DNA of 64,000 bases from Prochlorococcus marinus str. MIT 0917. Lineage in GTDB: Bacteria; Cyanobacteriota; Cyanobacteriia; PCC-6307; Cyanobiaceae. Where the stretch lies: the NCBI RefSeq assembly GCF_027359575.1, contig NZ_CP114784.1, forward strand, positions 991,819 to 1,055,818, written 5' to 3'. Under the pieces are notes generated by a model. The model saw only the letters and a list, made by a program, of their open reading frames with translations. It ran no database searches and had not been told where the DNA came from. Positions 17,418 through 23,825 of this stretch are shown here, one piece after another (positions within the stretch are counted from its first letter, which is position 1; each line of letters opens with the position of its first letter). The position numbers were made by a program, and so were the translations under genes.

Positions 17418-18203
17418 CTATCTATTATTTGGTAGCAAAATTAATGAAATCACACAAAGAACACTAATCAAAGGTCCAGGAGGCAAATTCAAAATCATAG
17501 CTAGAGAAAAACCTATAAGCGATAAAATTAAGCCAAATATGGATGATCTAATCATTGCAATCCATAAAGATCTTGCTTTCTGTAATCCCAACAAAGTTGG
17601 GGTTGAAAGTAACGCAATCACAAGAATGACTCCCACTGCAGACATTGAACTCACAATGACAAGTGCCGTAGTAAAACCAAGAGCCAAATTTAAAAAAGAT
17701 ACATTAACTCCACTTGAGGCAGCTCCTTCTGGATCAAGACCAATATGAACAAGCTTGTCGTAACCAAAAAGCATCAAACAAATAAATACCGAGAAAGCGA
17801 TCAAAGTTCTTAGCAGATCACTCAAATTTGCAGTTAATAAATCTCCAAATAAAACAGCCTCCAAATCAATCCTGATACCCAGTAGAGGTATAAGCAAAAC
17901 ACCGAGTCCCATCGAACCAGCAAGAATTGTATTCATAACCGCTTCATAATTTTGATTTTTTCTATTTGTCAAGCTCTCTGCTGCAATAGCTCCTACCAAG
18001 CCGCTGATGACTCCACCAATAGAAGGATCCAAACCAAGCGCCATAGCCAAAGCTAGACCTGGCAAAACACAATGCGAAATCAAATTAACTTGAAGAAGCC
18101 TTTTATGAGTGATCAATACAGTGCCCATGGCAGGGCAAAGTATTCCTGAAAAGGAAGTTATCAAAAGAGGAATTATCCACCAATTTGTATTTAAAAAAGA
18201 CAT
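17418..18203 (-). CDS. znuB: Zinc/manganese ABC transporter permease (ABC-3 family)
   Basis: This is the inner-membrane permease of a metal-uptake ABC transporter. The 261 residues are largely hydrophobic, with about seven to eight membrane segments, and contain the family block HKRLLQVNLISHCVLPGLAL and the C-terminal PPGPLISVLCVISLI region. Zinc is more likely than manganese because a Zur-like regulator, a His-rich ZnuA and a COG0523 GTPase surround it. It is separated from znuC by the zur gene, which is read in the opposite direction. Confidence 0.9.
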   Translation of the reverse strand: MSFLNTNWWIIPLLITSFSGILCPAMGTVLITHKRLLQVNLISHCVLPGLALAMALGLDPSIGGVISGLVGAIAAESLTNRKNQNYEAVMNTILAGSMGLGVLLIPLLGIRIDLEAVLFGDLLTANLSDLLRTLIAFSVFICLMLFGYDKLVHIGLDPEGAASSGVNVSFLNLALGFTTALVIVSSMSAVGVILVIALLSTPTLLGLQKARSLWIAMIRSSIFGLILSLIGFSLAMILNLPPGPLISVLCVISLILLPNNR

Positions 18204-18256
18204 GAAGCCAATGATTCAGTATGGTCAGGAAGAGAGATCAAGTTAAGATCTTACAA

Positions 18257-18661
18257 ATGAGCAAAAGCAAGCCTGAAATCACTAGACGTCAACAGCAACT
18301 GCTCAATGAACTCAAGAAATGTACTGATGAATTGAGTGGGCAAGAACTGCATAGACAACTTCATAATGGTGAAAAGGTCATGGGACTGACCACGGTCTAT
18401 CGAAACCTGCAAGCTCTAGTAAAGCAAGGTTTGATTCGTTCCAGACATCTTCCCAATGGTGAGGTTCTTTATGCACCAGTTGAAAGAGATATTCATCATT
18501 TAACTTGCGTAAGCTGTGGAGAAACAACACGCTTAAAGGGATGTCCGGTCAAAACAACTGATCTGTCCAAAAAAACTTCTAAAAATTTTGAGCTTTTGTT
18601 TCATACTCTTGAGTACTTTGGTCTCTGCCAAAATTGTTCTCAGCAACTTAATGTTGGATAA
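18257..18661 (+). CDS. zur: Fur-family regulator, probably Zur
   Basis: This is a 134-residue Fur-family repressor started at ATG 18257; an in-frame ATG at 18221 would add 12 residues. It has the winged-helix part (GLTTVYRNLQALVKQGLIRS) and metal-binding sites HHLTCVSCGE and the C-terminal CQNC, the two CxxC pairs of the structural zinc site. Its location inside the znu genes indicates Zur rather than iron-sensing Fur. It is encoded between znuB and znuC on the opposite strand, so any znuC-znuB read-through RNA would be antisense to zur. Confidence 0.85.
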   Translation: MSKSKPEITRRQQQLLNELKKCTDELSGQELHRQLHNGEKVMGLTTVYRNLQALVKQGLIRSRHLPNGEVLYAPVERDIHHLTCVSCGETTRLKGCPVKTTDLSKKTSKNFELLFHTLEYFGLCQNCSQQLNVG

Positions 18662-18684: not shown

Positions 18685-19380
18685 CTATAACTTCCACCTC
18701 AAATAATTAATTGAACTAAGTTTTTCTTGAACTTCCTGAGGGCTGCCAGAAGCCAAAATAATTTTATCTAAAGCAACAACCTTGTCATAGGCATTTAAAG
18801 ATGTTCCCCAGTCGTGACTACTAACAAAGACAGTGAATCCCGAATCAGCTAGCTGACGAATGATTAACAGGAAATCTTCTTTAGCGGGAGGATCAAAGGC
18901 GGAGCAAGGTTCATCAAGAAGAAAAATTTTGGCTGGATTCATTAATGTTTTTGCAAGTAATGCTCTTTGTTGCTGACCACCAGACAAAGCATCAAGTCTC
19001 CTTTTTGCTAAATGAGATATTCCAACACGTTGAAGAGCAGCTTCTAATTCACAACAAGTCGATTTGGAATGATTTACTCGACCTAAGGAAACTAATCCTT
19101 CAACTGTGATAGGAAAATTCCAATTCAGCTTTCCTCTTTGAGGCATTAAAGCAATTTGAGATCGATCATTAATTAATGGTTTCCCTCCAACAGTGATTTT
19201 TCCTTTATCTGGTTTGCTGTTTCCTTGAAGCAAGCTTAATAATGTGGACTTTCCTGCACCATTGGGACCAACAAGAGCAGTCAAAGTACCTGGCTCCAGC
19301 TTTAGAGAAACCTCACTTAAAGCAGGTTTGATTTTACTGGAATAGGAATATGTCACATTTTCAGCAATCAAACTAGACAT
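18685..19380 (-). CDS. znuC: Zinc ABC transporter ATP-binding protein
   Basis: This is the ATPase of the metal-uptake ABC transporter. The 231 residues (ATG at 19378-19380) show Walker A GPNGAGKSTLL, the signature LSGGQQQRALLAKTL, Walker B IFLLDEP and a switch His (SHDWG). It is transcribed away from znuA, with about 90 bases between the starts containing a Zur-type palindrome. Its partner znuB lies beyond the oppositely oriented zur gene. Confidence 0.92.
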   Translation of the reverse strand: MSSLIAENVTYSYSSKIKPALSEVSLKLEPGTLTALVGPNGAGKSTLLSLLQGNSKPDKGKITVGGKPLINDRSQIALMPQRGKLNWNFPITVEGLVSLGRVNHSKSTCCELEAALQRVGISHLAKRRLDALSGGQQQRALLAKTLMNPAKIFLLDEPCSAFDPPAKEDFLLIIRQLADSGFTVFVSSHDWGTSLNAYDKVVALDKIILASGSPQEVQEKLSSINYLRWKL

Positions 19381-19430
19381 CAATTAGAGGATTTGCTGAC
19401 AAGAAACATAATATACTTGCCAATCTCAAA

Positions 19431-19445
19431 TGAAAATGATTATCG
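19431..19445. promoter_or_regulatory. Candidate Zur box between znuC and znuA
   Basis: TGAAAATGATTATCG is a 7-1-7 palindrome close to the TGATAATnATTATCA form recognised by Fur-family repressors; five of seven positions are symmetric. It lies 27 bases before the znuA start and 51 bases before the znuC start, so one site could control both divergent genes. Confidence 0.7.
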
Positions 19446-19471: not shown

Positions 19472-20998
19472 ATGTCGAAATTGTTCAATCAACGCATCAA
19501 GAGCAAATCAATATTTAATAAAACAGTCCTTAAGAACTCTTTTCTTGCTGGAGCATTTTTATTTTCGGGAATTCATCAGAGCGCACAGGCAAATTCAAAA
19601 TCAATTATTGCTGTAGAGCCATTAGTCTGCGATGTCGTTTCTGCAATTGCACCACCCTCTACTCCCGTAACCTGCTTAATTGATAGAAAACAAGATGTTC
19701 ATGATGTCAAGATCACCCCAAGGCAAGCTCAAACACTAAAAAGTGCGAATCAAATATTTACGCTTGGTTCAGAGATGACCCCTGCAATTAAAAAATGGTT
19801 AGATAATCCCTTAACTGTTGTCGTTGGTGTAAGTGCAATAGAAATAGACGATCATCATGACGACCACGATGATCATTCAGCTGCTAAACATGACGATCAT
19901 GATGACCACGATGATCATTCAGCTGCTAAACATGACGATCATGATGACCACGATGATCATGGTGATAGCCATGGAGAAGGAGCTTTTGAATGGGCTGGTG
20001 TTTTTGATCTTTCAGCAGGAACATACAAATGGTCTTTTGCCAAAGTCGATGGAGACTATGCTGATCCTGCAATGAAAATGGTTATTCTCAATTCTGGTGA
20101 TATTGAAGCATCAGAAGAGCTTGCCAAAGAATTATTAGGATCTAAGGATTCAGAAACCAAACGCAATAATGACAAACTTGTTGCGCAGGAAAAAGCATAT
20201 TTTCTTTCATTTAATGAGAAGAAAGACATCACAACCTTTACTGTAGAAATCAAAAAAGCTGGTAAATATGCATTCTTTACTGAGCATATGCCTTTTGAGT
20301 TTGAAGCCGACGAACATTTCTTTAAGGATGTTTCAGGCGACGATGTTGAACCTATAGCTCAAGTTCCAGATGAAGGCGATCATCATCATCACCATGATCA
20401 TGGTGGGCTAGATCCTCATATCTGGCATGACCCTCATAACATCATCAAGATGGGAAATGTCATTTCTAAAAATATCAATAAGAAAATTTCCTTCTTTGAC
20501 AGAGAAACAAAAAAAGTTTTAAAAGAAAGAACTCAAGCCGTTAATTCTATTTTAGAAGATCTCGACTTATGGACTCAAAAACAAGTTGCTACAATTCCTA
20601 CTGATCGAAGGACAATCGTTTCTAAGCACAAAGCGATGGAATATTACGGAGATGCATTTGGCTTGAAGACTTTGAGTCTATTAGATTTCCTTGGTGATTC
20701 TTCCAGCCTTAGACCAGAGACTATTTCTACGGTAATAGCTGAGCTCAAAGAAGAAAACGTGAACGTCTTATTCGCTGAGCAAAAGCCTCCTTCCAAGCTA
20801 TTAAAAAACTTAAGCAGACAAACTTCCACCCCTATTGCAAGAAATCAAATCTTTGTTGATGGTCTAATGCTAGAAGGGAATACTGTTTCAGTAGCAGTAC
20901 ACAACACATGTACAATTGTTGATTCGCTTGGTGGAGAATGTGATGAGAGAGAGGGGGATGAACTTGAGGGTAAATGGAATGATTTAACCAACCCTTAA
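19472..20998 (+). CDS. znuA: Zinc ABC transporter substrate-binding protein with inserted domain
   Basis: This is the periplasmic metal-binding protein of the Znu transporter, unusually long at 508 residues (typical ZnuA is about 300-350). A signal peptide precedes the ZnuA N-lobe (IIAVEPLVCDVVSAI). A His/Asp-rich loop (about 127-169, two 14-residue repeats of DHDDHSAAKHDDHD) follows. Next comes an insert from about 172 to 285 (FEWAGVFDLSAGTYKWSF to FFTEHMPFEFEADEHFF) that resembles an insert in the COG0523 protein encoded downstream. A second His stretch (DHHHHHDHG) then leads into the C-lobe (DPHIWHDPHN, SKHKAMEYYGDAFGL). It heads a probable operon with the next three genes, under the Zur-like box. 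Confidence 0.92.
   Translation: MSKLFNQRIKSKSIFNKTVLKNSFLAGAFLFSGIHQSAQANSKSIIAVEPLVCDVVSAIAPPSTPVTCLIDRKQDVHDVKITPRQAQTLKSANQIFTLGSEMTPAIKKWLDNPLTVVVGVSAIEIDDHHDDHDDHSAAKHDDHDDHDDHSAAKHDDHDDHDDHGDSHGEGAFEWAGVFDLSAGTYKWSFAKVDGDYADPAMKMVILNSGDIEASEELAKELLGSKDSETKRNNDKLVAQEKAYFLSFNEKKDITTFTVEIKKAGKYAFFTEHMPFEFEADEHFFKDVSGDDVEPIAQVPDEGDHHHHHDHGGLDPHIWHDPHNIIKMGNVISKNINKKISFFDRETKKVLKERTQAVNSILEDLDLWTQKQVATIPTDRRTIVSKHKAMEYYGDAFGLKTLSLLDFLGDSSSLRPETISTVIAELKEENVNVLFAEQKPPSKLLKNLSRQTSTPIARNQIFVDGLMLEGNTVSVAVHNTCTIVDSLGGECDEREGDELEGKWNDLTNP
19862..19960 (+). repeat. 42-bp tandem repeat encoding the ZnuA His loop
   Basis: A 42-base unit starting GACCACGATGATCATTCAG occurs at 19862-19903 and 19904-19945, followed by 15 bases of a third copy. 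The units are in frame and encode DHDDHSAAKHDDHD. Copy number could change by slippage, altering the length of the metal-binding loop. Confidence 0.9.
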
Positions 20999-21007
20999 GA
21001 TTCAAAA

Positions 21008-21050
21008 TTTGAATAATGTCTAACTTGAAAAAAGTTAGACATTATTCAAA
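21008..21050 (+). repeat. Perfect 19-bp stem-loop between znuA and the next gene
   Basis: TTTGAATAATGTCTAACTT (21008-21026) pairs perfectly with AAGTTAGACATTATTCAAA (21032-21050) around a GAAAA loop. It begins 10 bases after the znuA stop. There is no T run after it, so it is not a simple terminator; an mRNA stability or attenuation element is plausible. It would bury an ATG at 21016. Confidence 0.9.
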
Positions 21051-21054
21051 CTAC

Positions 21055-21372
21055 ATGTTTCCAACCAAAGGATATAAAGCATACAAACAACATTGGGAAG
21101 ACCAAGCGGGTTTCATGGATAAACCACCATGGGACCAAGATAAGATCCTAAAACTTATTATCTCAACTGATTTCGATTCCAATCTAAAAGAACTTCAATT
21201 TTCAAATCATTCGCTTAAAAAAGAGAATGGGGAAAATACATTAAGAGTAAAAGTCCCTTATAATTATTACGAACTTGATGACTTCGAGTCAAAATCACTT
21301 GAATTATTGGGTATTCAAGAAAATTGGATAACTGATATTTCTCTTGAAAACTCACATTGTTCAAATCGTTAA
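21055..21372 (+). CDS. Small protein of unknown function in the znu operon
   Basis: I do not recognise this protein. It has 105 residues from the ATG at 21055. A longer start at 21016 (118 residues) lies inside a perfect 19-bp stem-loop and seems less likely. It is soluble and polar, with an aromatic, His-containing start (MFPTKGYKAYKQHWEDQAGF then MDKPPWDQDK). It lies between znuA and the COG0523 gene, ending nine bases before the latter, so it probably belongs to the zinc operon. Confidence 0.65.
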   Translation: MFPTKGYKAYKQHWEDQAGFMDKPPWDQDKILKLIISTDFDSNLKELQFSNHSLKKENGENTLRVKVPYNYYELDDFESKSLELLGIQENWITDISLENSHCSNR

Positions 21373-21381
21373 TTAAAGGAA

Positions 21382-22764
21382 ATGAGTACCAAACAAAAAG
21401 TACCGGTGACAATACTGACTGGTTTCCTAGGATCTGGCAAAACGACTCTTCTTAATCGAATTCTAAGCGAAGAGCACGGTAAAAAAATAGCTGTTATTGA
21501 AAATGAATATGGTGAAGTTGGTATTGATCAAGGATTAGTAATCAATGCTGATGAAGAGGTCTTCGAGATGTCGAATGGTTGCATCTGTTGCACCGTTCGG
21601 GGTGATCTAATTCGTGTACTTGGAAACCTCATGAAGAGGCGAGACAAATTTGACTACGTATTAGTTGAAACTACTGGCCTTGCTGATCCTGGTCCTGTCG
21701 CTCAGACATTCTTTATGGACGATGAAATCCGTGAGGAGTTTTCACTTGATGGCATAGTCACACTTGTTGATGCAGCCCATATAGAGCAACAACTTGGTCG
21801 AAGTGATGAGAGTTCAGAGCAAGTTGCCTTTGCTGACGTCCTTGTCTTAAATAAAACTGATCTAGTTTCAGATGAATCACTCGACAACTTAGAATTACGG
21901 CTACGCGATATGAATCGTATGGCTCGTGTCATACGCAGTAAACAAGCAGACGTCTCAATTGATACTGTGCTAAATCTAAGTGCTTTTGATCTAGATCAAG
22001 TACTTCAGCGTCGTCCAACTTTTCTTGAACCAGAATACCCATTTGAGTGGACAGGTGTTTTTTCACTTGAAAAAGGTCGCTATGAACTTACGCTCGAAGA
22101 AGGTCCAGACCCCACAATGTCTCTCGTCCTGTTATTAAATCAAGGCAAGGATGAGACATCACTCAACTCAGGGGCTGAATCATGCGTAAGACTATATGCC
22201 GAACAAGAACAACTTATGAATCCAGGGGATATGGTCCCAGTCGGCAAACATGTAAGCCTTCAACTGCAATCCGGAGGAACTAAGTCCTTCTTCATAGATG
22301 TTGATAAGGCAAGGGATATAGGTCTGTTCACTCAACATACAGCCGAAGAATTTAATATGAAATTAACGAAAGTAAATACTCCTTCTACAGATGAGATAGA
22401 TAATGATCAGAACACCTCTACAATTTCTCCAATAGCTGAAAGGGTTTGGGTAGCTGAACACGAACACGATGACGAAGTAGGTTCAATCGCTATCGAGCGA
22501 GAGGGTGATGTAGATCCGGAGAAACTCAATAGATGGCTAAGTCGACTTTTGTCTGAGAAAGGTGTGGATATATTTCGCACCAAAGGTTTCATTAGTTATG
22601 CGGGTGAATCTAAGCGAATAGTTTTTCAAGGAGTACACATGCTCTTCACAGCACAACCTGATAAAGAATGGGGCAATGAACCTCGCCGTAACCAACTCGT
22701 CTTTATCGGTAGAAATCTTGATGCAGCAGAAATGAGTAGGGAGTTTGACAAATGTCTGGTATAG
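21382..22764 (+). CDS. COG0523 (CobW-type) GTPase with inserted domain
   Basis: COG0523 proteins are GTP-dependent metal chaperones or allocators; many are controlled by Zur. The 460 residues show Walker A GFLGSGKT (14-21), the metal motif CICC (67-70), ETTG (96-99) and NKTD (157-160). A domain from about 221 to 327 (FEWTGVFSLEKGRYELTLEE to FTQHTAEEFNM) is inserted before the usual CobW C-terminal domain (about 350-455) and resembles the insert in ZnuA. A His-containing linker (EHEHDDE) lies between. It has an AAAGGA ribosome-binding site and overlaps the WD40 gene by 13 bases. A zinc role is inferred from context. Confidence 0.9.
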   Translation: MSTKQKVPVTILTGFLGSGKTTLLNRILSEEHGKKIAVIENEYGEVGIDQGLVINADEEVFEMSNGCICCTVRGDLIRVLGNLMKRRDKFDYVLVETTGLADPGPVAQTFFMDDEIREEFSLDGIVTLVDAAHIEQQLGRSDESSEQVAFADVLVLNKTDLVSDESLDNLELRLRDMNRMARVIRSKQADVSIDTVLNLSAFDLDQVLQRRPTFLEPEYPFEWTGVFSLEKGRYELTLEEGPDPTMSLVLLLNQGKDETSLNSGAESCVRLYAEQEQLMNPGDMVPVGKHVSLQLQSGGTKSFFIDVDKARDIGLFTQHTAEEFNMKLTKVNTPSTDEIDNDQNTSTISPIAERVWVAEHEHDDEVGSIAIEREGDVDPEKLNRWLSRLLSEKGVDIFRTKGFISYAGESKRIVFQGVHMLFTAQPDKEWGNEPRRNQLVFIGRNLDAAEMSREFDKCLV

Positions 22765-23825
22765 AAGCATTTAGTCCCAAGGGAATGCTTCATGAAGGTT
22801 GGTCTACGCAAGTTGACGACTATGCGATTGTCTGCGGCTGGGCACTAGAAGGTAAAACTTTTTTAGTAGGTGATGTCGCTGGTGGGCTTTACGCATTTGA
22901 GGGAAAATCTGGAAAGCTCATTTGGCAAATAAAAGACATACATAAAGGTGGCTTACTCGCAATGTCTATACATCCAAATGGAAAGACTTTTGCAACTGCT
23001 GGCCAAGATGGACATGTGAATATATGGGAAAGCCAAGAGGGTACGGCAACTAATGCTTTGGAACTTGGGAAAGGATGGGTTGAGCACATCAAGTGGTCCC
23101 CAGACGGAAAATTTTTAGCAGTAGTTTTTACTAAATACGTCTATGTTTTTGATGATAAAGGTCAAGAACATTGGCGATCAGAGGAGCATCCCAGCACTGT
23201 CAGCGCAATTGCTTGGTCTAATTCAAATGAATTAGCAACAGCATGCTATGGCCAAGTCACTTTTTTTGATGTAGTAAACGACAAGATCAATCAAAAGTTG
23301 GAGTGGCGAGGCTCACTGGTATCAATGGTGCTTAGTCCAGATGGAGACATAGTGGCATGCGGCAGTCAGGATAATTCTGTTCATTTCTGGCGTCGTTCAA
23401 CAGATGAAGATTCAGAGATGACAGGATATCCAGGCAAACCAAGCCACCTAGCTTTTGATCAAACTGGCACAGTTCTTGCTACTGGGGGTAGTGATCGAGT
23501 AACGGTTTGGAGTTTTCAAGACGATGGTCCTGAGGGCACTGTACCTGGAGAGTTAATGCTTCATACCGAACCCATTTCATGCCTTGCTTTCTCACATAGC
23601 GGGATGCTTTTAGCTTCTGGCGCGAGAGATGGTTCAGTTTTTTCTTGGTTCCTCCAAGCAGATGGTCAGGGTGATCCAGTTGGTGGTGCATTTTCAGGTG
23701 ACCTTGTAAGCCAAATCGCTTGGCACCCTGATGACACTGCCTTGGCTGCAATAAATGCAAACGGAGGAATTACGGTTTGGGATTTTAAGGTTCGGACGAA
23801 AACGTCACCTCAAGGATTCGAATAA
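22752..23825 (+). CDS. WD40 repeat protein
   Basis: This 357-residue protein consists of about seven WD40 repeats forming a beta-propeller, seen in blocks such as SIHPNGKTFATAGQDGHVNIW, AFDQTGTVLATGGSDRVTVW and AFSHSGMLLASGARDGSVFSW. It has no signal peptide and no extra domain. WD40 propellers are usually protein-interaction platforms. It begins inside the last codons of the COG0523 gene (13-base overlap), so translation is probably coupled and the two products may act together. The partner and function are unknown. Confidence 0.88.
   Translation: MSGIEAFSPKGMLHEGWSTQVDDYAIVCGWALEGKTFLVGDVAGGLYAFEGKSGKLIWQIKDIHKGGLLAMSIHPNGKTFATAGQDGHVNIWESQEGTATNALELGKGWVEHIKWSPDGKFLAVVFTKYVYVFDDKGQEHWRSEEHPSTVSAIAWSNSNELATACYGQVTFFDVVNDKINQKLEWRGSLVSMVLSPDGDIVACGSQDNSVHFWRRSTDEDSEMTGYPGKPSHLAFDQTGTVLATGGSDRVTVWSFQDDGPEGTVPGELMLHTEPISCLAFSHSGMLLASGARDGSVFSWFLQADGQGDPVGGAFSGDLVSQIAWHPDDTALAAINANGGITVWDFKVRTKTSPQGFE

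Follow-up and report, generated by a model that had tools for sequence, protein, structure and literature searches.

In subfamily 5 of the COG0523 GTPases (Haas et al. 2009), the prokaryotic genes lie in clusters with znuABC and with genes for WD40 proteins, and Zur sites are predicted for several of them, according to the available portion of PMC2770081. For AdcA and ZinT, transfer through a His-rich loop has been proposed (PMC7858048; PMC6689063; both accessible in part). Homologues of ZepA lie near ZnuA and COG0523 genes, among others, in the accessible part of PMC10957091. In Synechococcus WH8102, a znuA cluster is repressed by Zur (PMC9337993, available in part); the presence there of the module described below is not established. 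It is an open question how cells capture zinc when it is very scarce and pass it on without loss, and the COG0523 GTPases are still poorly understood.

We analysed a stretch of 64,000 nucleotides from Prochlorococcus marinus str. MIT 0917 (the window). A first-pass annotation had pointed to a segment that a ZnuA-type protein and a COG0523 GTPase have in common. The observation is right, and it is larger in extent than first proposed.

The locus and its two module copies

Table 1. Positions of genes, module copies and sites in the window
Feature	Position	Strand	Basis
ZnuB-like permease	17418..18203	-	translation and context, by eye
Fur-family regulator, likely Zur, between znuB-like and znuC-like genes	18221..18661	+	translation and context, by eye
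ZnuC-like ATPase	18685..19383	-	translation and context, by eye
Zur-box-like palindrome, between znuC-like gene and znuA	19431..19445	+	2 mismatches to TGATAATNATTATCA
ZnuA-type zinc substrate-binding protein, 508 aa, host of copy 1	19472..20998	+	PF01297
His/Asp-rich tether, DDH repeats, ahead of copy 1	19844..19984	+	sequence
Module copy 1, within His-rich region of ZnuA, aa 172-306	19985..20389	+	homology to copy 2
ZnuA E173, E of FEW	19988..19990	+	letter checked
ZnuA D198, D of (P/A)DP	20063..20065	+	letter checked
ZnuA H272, H of FT(E/Q)H	20285..20287	+	row conservation
ZnuA E276, E of HxPxEF	20297..20299	+	row conservation
ZnuA HxH (H304, H306) after module, inside His run	20381..20389	+	row conservation
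COG0523 GTPase, 460 aa, host of copy 2	21382..22764	+	PF02492, PF07683
Module copy 2, between GTPase and CobW_C domains, aa 221-362	22042..22467	+	homology to copy 1
GTPase E222	22045..22047	+	letter checked
GTPase D243	22108..22110	+	letter checked
GTPase H319	22336..22338	+	letter checked
GTPase E323	22348..22350	+	letter checked
GTPase HxH (H360, H362)	22459..22467	+	68/68 GTPase rows
WD40 protein, adjoins GTPase gene	22752..23825	+	PF00400, E 4.6e-31

ZnuA matches PF01297 (Pfam, E 1.9e-44) in two stretches that flank the module, the best at residues 290-482, and its N-terminus looks signal-like by eye. Copy 1 consists of a core (residues 172-284) and then a tail as far as HxH. In the GTPase, PF02492 was matched at residues 8-184 (E 3.4e-61) and PF07683 (CobW_C) at 367-459 (E 7.3e-26); the GCxCC motif reads NGCICC at 65-70 and is invariant in 46 rows. 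The adjoining WD40 gene and the znuABC-like genes meet the neighbour traits of COG0523 subfamily 5. The Fur-family gene and the Zur-box-like site supply the zinc context of the locus, and zinc binding by ZnuA is inferred from these two and from its family. When the window was compared with TGATAATNATTATCA, which we take to be the Zur-box consensus, three places were found at 2 mismatches, the site ahead of znuA among them, and none with fewer; the total at 3 mismatches or fewer is 14, no more than chance allows, since 12 of 100 shuffles also attain it.

Homology, extent and descent of the module

ZnuA residues about 172-284 and GTPase residues about 221-331 are homologous. Both genes lie where the first-pass annotation had placed them, the strings that it quoted are present, and BLASTP of the whole proteins gives a single significant alignment (ZnuA 169-313 with GTPase 218-369, E = 1e-7). 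Searched against the whole 1.92-Mb genome, the ZnuA segment matches only itself and the GTPase (E 4.1e-5). The annotation had also named profile comparison and structure prediction as checks, and both came out in its favour. Profiles of 9 cyanobacterial ZnuA rows and 11 cyanobacterial COG0523 rows match with probability 97.9 and E 4.9e-13, and wider disjoint sets (6 bacterial ZnuA rows, 68 GTPase rows) give E 1.5e-29. With seven host-specific profiles, one of which (CbtA) is a single sequence, all 21 pairs are homologous at E 3e-12 to 1e-44. For copy 1 (residues 165-310, modelled with 16 rows without GTPases), the pLDDT is 84.7 and the pTM 0.80, with the last 9 residues below 50; for copy 2 (46 GTPase rows), the block pLDDT is 90-97 at residues 221-330 and 63-80 at 331-370. 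The alignments behind the two models do not overlap, and the main order of strands and helix is the same in both, as compared by order and without superposition. The best explanation is that the shared segment is one domain family, mainly beta, of about 115 residues.

The module is often trailed by a tail of about 25 residues and then HxH. Conservation extends beyond the EF where the segment had first been ended to this downstream HxH, and so the module may be nearer 135-140 residues; the HxH tail is the low-confidence part of both models. We counted conservation in 215 distinct sequences, obtained from 244 segments by collapsing duplicates (loci L001-L079, L125-L204, L217-L238 and L247-L289). 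Segments shorter than 85 residues or with domain E of at least 0.01, including L261, were dropped, and loci L080-L124, L205-L216 and L239-L246 are not in the set. The cyanobacterial loci L001-L079 supply 72 of the 215; L238, a weak and diverged match (E 1.9e-6), was kept and is not used as an example. E, D, H and E are all present in 196 sequences. The E of FEW is kept in 213, a count partly forced by a search pattern that contained EW, on which the sampling of the family also partly rests. The H of FT(E/Q)H is found in 206 sequences and the E of HxPxEF in 201, and both are complete in the aligned rows (68/68 GTPase, 16/16 non-GTPase), where the D of (P/A)DP is kept in 67/68 and 16/16; L173 was excluded from these row counts and from the tree below, as its match is split. 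The two histidines of HxH are present in 14/16 and 16/16 of the non-GTPase rows and in all of the GTPase rows. In the GTPase, HxH may be a property of the host rather than of the module, because His stretches are common across COG0523 proteins (about 40%, from the accessible part of PMC2770081).

A His-rich loop stands at the D position in 13 sequences, and all 13 lack the H..E pair, compared with 2 of the 202 others. Five of the 13 keep the H, and the D is scored as lost there owing to the length of the loop. Since all 13 come from one phylum, probably one clade, the swap counts as about one event, and no Fisher p value is given for the contrast because these sequences are related.

The window copies are only about 26-32% identical, which would leave room for chance or a convergence of short motifs. 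That reading has already been refuted and retains practically no credibility: in addition to the BLASTP and profile-profile results, the Smith-Waterman score of the two copies is 91, whereas the best of 2000 shuffles scores 60, and a reversed GTPase profile, used as control against the seven host profiles, reaches only E 0.04-0.39. The position of the two genes, two apart as the first-pass annotation remarked, could also suggest that the segment was copied from one to the other within the operon. We regard this as very improbable. In a tree of 101 rows, the window ZnuA copy joins the SAR324 and Verrucomicrobium ZnuA copies (support 100/99) and then the haloarchaeal copies (100/93), while the window GTPase copy sits among other GTPase copies. 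The tree, which lacks CbtA and any locus after L204, carries warnings for few columns, long branches and the odd letter make-up of the window ZnuA row. On this tree the window copies belong to separate old lineages, and local duplication is disfavoured. Host kinds cluster on it with 4 changes, the minimum for five labels (shuffled mean 22.1), and so moves between hosts were few and old. The module had been called mobile; the variety of hosts given below supports the word, and the tree restricts it to rare and ancient moves.

Hosts, spread and relation to known families

The module spans bacteria and archaea and was found in six kinds of host: ZnuA, the COG0523 GTPase, a CDF exporter (Cation_efflux PF01545 with ZT_dimer PF16916), the CbtA cobalt-transporter subunit (PF09490, E 3.4e-38), a NicO-like membrane protein and His-rich lipoprotein-like proteins. 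Four kinds have a Pfam family; the NicO-like and lipoprotein hosts were assigned by eye. All hosts that fall into a recognised family handle metals, in line with the suggestion of a metal-handling module; metal binding by the module itself is inferred. Among the non-GTPase hosts, 24 ORFs were scanned and 21 were readable. All 21 have at least three His in the 30 residues ahead of the module, and 19 have at least three in the stretch after it. For three ZnuA hosts missed by the script (L139, L232 and L233), a count by eye gives 0-2 His ahead of the module; G125 has none there.

For the genus, 37 genomes were sampled, including that of the window: 30 have two matches, 3 have one and 4 have none. 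The single matches are the GTPase copy, as judged by E-value and frame length, and several assemblies are incomplete. In one haloarchaeal species (two records), a lipoprotein-like module gene follows ureF. Tandem copies occur in two lineages, G125 (86/113 identical) and SAR324 (98/117 identical). A double-module ZnuA in G136 was set aside as an assembly artefact and not counted as tandem, because its two copies do not differ at all and are separated by a run of unknown residues. A phage origin was rejected, as a phage collection gave no module match at E 0.1 and none of 37 pattern matches in a scan of viral contigs was confirmed.

The segment had been thought to lie outside the named families, and this agrees with our searches: no Pfam, NCBIfam or PHROGs model covers it in the window copies or the other hosts, with only weak matches below cut-off. 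A description is also absent from the literature searched (open PMC), a scope that leaves out most subscription papers. The ZinT model, presumably PF09223, is unlisted for ZnuA (E up to 1) and for 20 module sequences (E up to 10), where weak matches are dropped by the HMMER filters; with no Pfam match over the module, ZinT membership was rejected. ZrgA (NF047873) was also rejected, with 32.5 bits against a cut-off of 185 and a match at ZnuA 85-169, ahead of the module. A profile search of PDB sequences gave a best E of 0.33. With the predicted module, Foldseek returned nothing at E 0.001, and a second structure alignment (VIA) gave a best Z of 4.6 (SEC14-like 3) and none of 5 or more, the neighbours being generic sandwiches such as CBMs and ephrin-receptor domains. 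The matches to a GOLD/CBM-like beta sandwich are of this weak kind. On these models there is no confident match to a solved structure, and families absent from the searched set are not excluded.

A possible metal-holding function and comparison with known systems

Because a zinc receptor, a zinc-chaperone GTPase and other metal transporters have the module in common, it is probably a reusable metal-holding part. Our preferred reading, which we consider somewhat probable, is a portable domain that holds divalent metal and feeds its host. Beyond the homology, placement, spread, conserved residues and common predicted order of main elements that were observed, it infers metal binding, transfer, the direction of transfer and the cell compartment. 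Built into unrelated metal-handling proteins, the module would hold a divalent ion, zinc in the window proteins and perhaps nickel or cobalt in some hosts, through the invariant E, D and H..E, perhaps with HxH, and then hand it to the host protein; the proximity of these residues in space is not established. In ZnuA, the module lies between the two lobes, within the His-rich region. There, outside the inner membrane, it would trap zinc when this is scarce and pass it by way of the His tethers to the cleft, a route like that proposed for the ZinT domain of AdcA. The GTPase copy, between the GTPase and CobW_C domains, may hold zinc for GTP-driven delivery. In favour of it are the homology of the host profiles, the metal-protein hosts, the His-rich flanks, the lipoprotein-like gene after ureF, the conserved residues with the His-loop swap, the tandem copies, the common order of elements in the two models and the zinc context. 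Against it, conservation of H, D and E may have structural causes, a few hosts have few or no His ahead of the module, the lipoprotein forms have no known function, and metal has never been seen in any member. It is doubtful, though conceivable, that receptors, exporters, cobalt permeases and a cytosolic GTPase share one metal-presenting domain, used inside and outside the membrane alike. The site (E, D, H, E with HxH) would then be of a new kind, and zinc, nickel or cobalt could keep one chemical form while it is held and passed on from capture to delivery.

The conserved residues could instead be a binding face without a metal site, with the module as a docking adaptor for a common partner (another module, the WD40 protein or a permease). 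A WD40 match is present in the fetched flanks of 50 of 68 GTPase loci, compared with 0 of 12 loci with other hosts only. The family sample also suits docking, since none of its 36 positive genomes has a ZnuA copy without a GTPase copy (two or more matches in 30, the GTPase copy only in 6), and both carriers lie at one locus in the window, in SAR324 and in one Verrucomicrobium. On the other hand, another set of 22 positive genomes has one match each, none inside a GTPase, and most non-GTPase hosts have His-rich flanks, which points to metal, as does the His-rich loop found in place at the D. ZnuA and the GTPase are presumably on opposite sides of the membrane, and would then not dock directly on each other. 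We regard docking as unlikely, with a real chance of being right. The module might also bind metal, for example structural Ca or Zn, solely for its own fold and serve as a spacer or lid on its host. Its conserved acidic residues are suitable, and among the weak matches to known folds are carbohydrate-binding and C2-like sandwiches, a group with some Ca-holding members. Nevertheless, a spacer would be unexpected in so many unrelated metal proteins, or as a standalone protein, and a swap to His-rich loops is unfit for a Ca site; a purely structural ion is rather improbable.

A close parallel to the module is ZinT, an accessory zinc-holding unit which is fused to a ZnuA-type receptor in AdcA or is free-standing as ZinT/YodA (accessible parts of PMC7858048 and PMC6689063). 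In AdcA, ZinT forms a lipocalin-like barrel at the C-terminus and has a three-His site, whereas the module lies between the ZnuA lobes, has a different conserved set (E, D, H..E, HxH) without a Pfam ZinT match, and is present also in the GTPase and other transporters. ZepA (Anabaena All3515) is alike as a Zur-controlled extracellular zinc protein with a beta-sandwich domain, but its reported zinc motif is H-X2-9-H-F/Y-H (PMC10957091, as far as available; no sequence comparison stands behind the likeness). AztD, often near CobW genes, also hands zinc to a ZnuA-type receptor (PMC6689063, available portion), but it is a beta-propeller. The window GTPase resembles COG0523 subfamily 5 in its WD40, znuABC and Zur-site context, and no extra domain is named for that subfamily in the accessible part of PMC2770081. 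The closest solved relative of the GTPase, YjiA, has 318 residues compared with 460.

The module is a single small testable piece common to a receptor, a chaperone GTPase and several transporters, and it qualifies as a candidate Pfam family that covers bacteria and archaea. It would offer a clue to the hypothetical lipoprotein-like proteins found in haloarchaea and Bacillota, and would explain the extra residues, about 140, in many COG0523 proteins linked to WD40 genes.

Homology and predicted fold of the two copies

The first-pass annotation claimed a likeness between segments of ZnuA and the COG0523 GTPase, here called the module. The likeness is real and covers ZnuA residues about 172-284 and GTPase residues about 221-331; when the two full-length proteins were compared by BLASTP, ZnuA 169-313 aligned with GTPase 218-369 (E 1e-7). 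When the ZnuA segment was searched against the 1.92-Mb genome, the GTPase was the sole other match (E 4.1e-5), and the Smith-Waterman score was 91, compared with a mean of 27 and a maximum of 60 over 2000 shuffles. The profile-profile check that had been suggested also supported the claim, with probability 97.9 and E 4.9e-13 for cyanobacterial rows. All 21 pairs among seven host-specific profiles gave E values of 3.2e-12 to 1.2e-44, and a reversed GTPase profile, run as a control against each of them, gave 0.04 to 0.39; these host-profile values are for single pairs, and the segments were all cut with one common model. Judged from sequence, one domain is common to all host types.

Structures were predicted for the ZnuA module (alignment of 16 rows, GTPases excluded; pLDDT 84.7, pTM 0.80) and for the whole GTPase (alignment of 46 GTPase rows; pLDDT 85.3, pTM 0.67, with blocks of 90-97 across residues 221-330). 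With the FEW motif set to 8-10 in both (GTPase numbers less 213), the modelled elements are E10-16, E19-26, E36-42, H47-59, E64-66, E78-82, E89-96 and E100-106 in ZnuA, and E10-16, E19-25, E32-39, H45-59, E64-66, E77-81, E88-94 and E98-104 in the GTPase. The fold comparison proposed with the original claim was made on element order only, without superposition, and the main order is alike in both models. Minor elements differ (E71-73, H110-113 and E132-134 in ZnuA; E114-117 and E139-142 in the GTPase), and the downstream HxH tails have low confidence in both. A PDB structure search with the module gave no match at E 0.001, and the best Z in the PDB comparison was 4.6.

Hosts, distribution and history

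In the species-wide scan (one genome each, 84,980 species), 196 relatives passed confirmation by tblastn at E 1e-3, many of them metagenome bins; the best 80 were retained. It used a single pattern, P[FW]EW[GA]G..., and is biased toward intact motifs. Among the 82 module-bearing ORFs in the best 80 of 196 loci, COG0523 GTPases account for 68, ZnuA-like receptors for 9 and other hosts for 5. Those 5 are a Paenibacillus protein that combines Cation_efflux and ZT_dimer domains with a C-terminal module, a membrane protein of Alicyclobacillus whose module sits in a His-rich loop (by eye it resembles NicO/UreH; DsbD_2, below cut-off, was its only family match) and three haloarchaeal proteins of lipoprotein-like appearance. 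The haloarchaeal sample adds a CbtA-matching host (PF09490, 3.4e-38), whose module likewise occupies a His-rich loop; from the Bacillota sample come two more ZnuA receptors and short ORFs of lipoprotein-like appearance. The Verrucomicrobium, Ktedonobacter robiniae and SAR324 samples add 43 loci, 39 for GTPases and 4 for ZnuA, one ZnuA ORF being counted twice (L285 and L288). Searches among plasmids yielded the host kinds seen elsewhere (8 and 11 records), the gene behind ureF in Natrinema versiforme among them. None of the hosts in the best 80 of 196 loci of the species-wide scan, the haloarchaeal and Bacillota samples or the three later samples has a known non-metal function.

Two loci have further features. 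Around a Bacillota lipoprotein-like form (L242, 8251-8724, minus strand) lie two COG0523-like genes, a gene of the Fur family and others resembling, by eye, a cobalt/nickel ECF transporter. A second module-bearing receptor copy near the end of a Haloarcula halophila plasmid record (L124, 4461-5776) has its reading frame broken within the module.

Module matches occurred in 34/60 genomes of the relatives sample (own genome counted), 36/151 of the family sample and 23/292 of the phylum sample. At least two matches were present in 30 of the 36 positive family-sample genomes and the GTPase copy alone in 6, while none of the 36 had a ZnuA copy without a GTPase copy; in one genome (G123) the two copies are far apart on one contig, at about 34 kb and 907 kb. 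With the centre genome counted each time, the module was found in 14/194 genomes of the class of Halomicrobium katesii, and in 8/348, 17/240, 19/251 and 7/52 genomes of the phyla of Alicyclobacillus montanus, a Verrucomicrobium, Ktedonobacter robiniae and a SAR324 genome, respectively. Titles among the best 80 of 196 relatives cover Bacillota, Chloroflexi, Poribacteria, Verrucomicrobia, Acidobacteria, actinobacterial groups, Gemmatimonadetes, Myxococcota, SAR324, Proteobacteria, Cryomorphaceae, Cyanobacteria, candidate phyla, Thaumarchaeota and Haloarchaea. The distribution of the module is therefore broad but patchy.

The module tree was built on 113 columns for 101 rows; 28 of its 96 inner branches are open, its bootstrap has not settled, and warnings apply to long branches and to the letter composition of the ZnuA row from the window. 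The window ZnuA copy clusters with two more cyanobacterial ZnuA copies, a single Verrucomicrobial copy and the pair of copies carried by one SAR324 protein (100/99), followed outward by haloarchaeal receptors and lipoprotein-like proteins (100/93), and the window GTPase copy falls among GTPases. Copying of the module between these neighbours was considered and is disfavoured, since the tree places their copies in separate groups. The CDF and NicO-like copies form one group (99/92). Five host labels require 4 changes on the tree, the minimum possible (shuffled mean 22.1), from which host changes are inferred to be few.

A SAR324 cluster on one strand repeats the pairing of the window, encoding a ZnuA with two modules, ZnuC-like and ZnuB-like proteins and a module-bearing GTPase, and a Verrucomicrobial locus has the module in both ZnuA and GTPase. 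Tandem modules are identical at 86/113 positions in a cyanobacterial genome (G125) and at 98/117 in SAR324. An 873-residue frame in genome G136 (L060, 6727-9345, minus strand) was rejected as a double-module ZnuA: two identical ZnuA pieces flank a run of N, an arrangement that we attribute to misassembly at the DDH repeat.

Conserved residues and the putative metal site

Four positions stand out, namely a first E, in FEW (ZnuA E173, GTPase E222), D (D198, D243), H (H272, H319) and a last E (E276, E323). The first E is invariant in 68 GTPase-hosted and 16 other rows, though the search pattern required it. H and the last E are each present in 68/68 and 16/16 rows, D in 67/68 and 16/16, and the downstream HxH in 68/68 and 14-16/16. 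All four residues occur in 196 of 215 distinct sequences (72 of the 215 from cyanobacterial loci). Thirteen GTPases from the Verrucomicrobial sample (L249-L260 and L262) have the D loop swapped for a long His-rich, sometimes Cys-containing loop; all 13 lack the H..E pair (HxPxEF motif lost), with H itself kept in 5, and the pair is lost in 2 of 202 sequences without such a loop. The 13 are related sequences, so they represent few events. In another locus (L248), E, D and H are altered together and a His-rich stretch follows the module. Joint loss of the D loop and H..E is what one expects if both serve one metal site replaceable by other ligands.

In ZnuA, DDH repeats precede the module and HHHHHDH follows it. 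A script count over non-GTPase hosts (24 submitted, 21 readable) found 3 or more His within the 30 residues that precede the module in 21/21 and in the stretch after it in 19/21; three hosts missed by the script (L139, L232 and L233) have, by eye, 0-2 His before the module. By analogy with the role proposed for the ZinT domain of AdcA, the ZnuA module would capture metal for transfer along a His tether. The GTPase module would keep zinc next to the GCxCC site. The reach of the module across the membrane is likewise an inference.

Genes of the zinc locus in the one-contig genome
Feature	Position	Strand	Remark
ZnuB-like gene		-	named by eye
ZnuC-like gene		-	named by eye
Fur-family gene, probably Zur	18221-18661	+	named by eye
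znuA	19472-20998	+	
118-residue ORF	21016-21372	+	between znuA and the GTPase gene
COG0523 GTPase gene	21382-22764	+	
WD40 protein gene	22752-23825	+	13-base overlap with end of GTPase gene

The zur-like gene is flanked by the znuB-like and znuC-like genes, which are both on the other strand. For the 118-residue ORF, no Pfam model scored above cut-off, and the best 80 of 196 module-bearing loci contain no match to it at E 1e-5. Of the 68 module-bearing GTPases in these best 80 of 196, 50 have a WD40 match nearby; in one locus (L168) a WD40 match shares an open frame with the GTPase. A Zur-box-like site with 2 mismatches lies between the znuC-like gene and znuA; across the whole window, sites of this kind are no more frequent than chance would give. 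In Synechococcus WH8102 (PMC9337993), the znuA cluster is Zur-repressed and its neighbours are uncharacterised; presence of the module there is not established. Zinc as the metal at the window locus is supported by the Fur-family neighbour, the Zur-box-like site and this WH8102 cluster. For other members, the urease and CbtA contexts suggest, by inference, nickel or cobalt. In Natrinema versiforme the lipoprotein-like module gene is directly 3' of ureF (L118, 4872-5423, and L202, 5207-5809; two records, one species), hinting at nickel, and this adjacency is absent from three other lipoprotein loci.

Comparison with known families

The further claim that the domain belongs to no named family was upheld, as no Pfam, NCBIfam or PHROGs model covers it. 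A literature search found no account of it in the open PMC library, which mostly excludes subscription papers. We consider it more likely than not that the module, which has an unusual reach across hosts, is an accessory metal-holding domain, the metal holding being inferred. A 2009 paper (PMC2770081) described subfamily 5 of prokaryotic COG0523, whose genes have WD40 and znuABC genes as neighbours. The host proteins are already known; the module is a new domain family.
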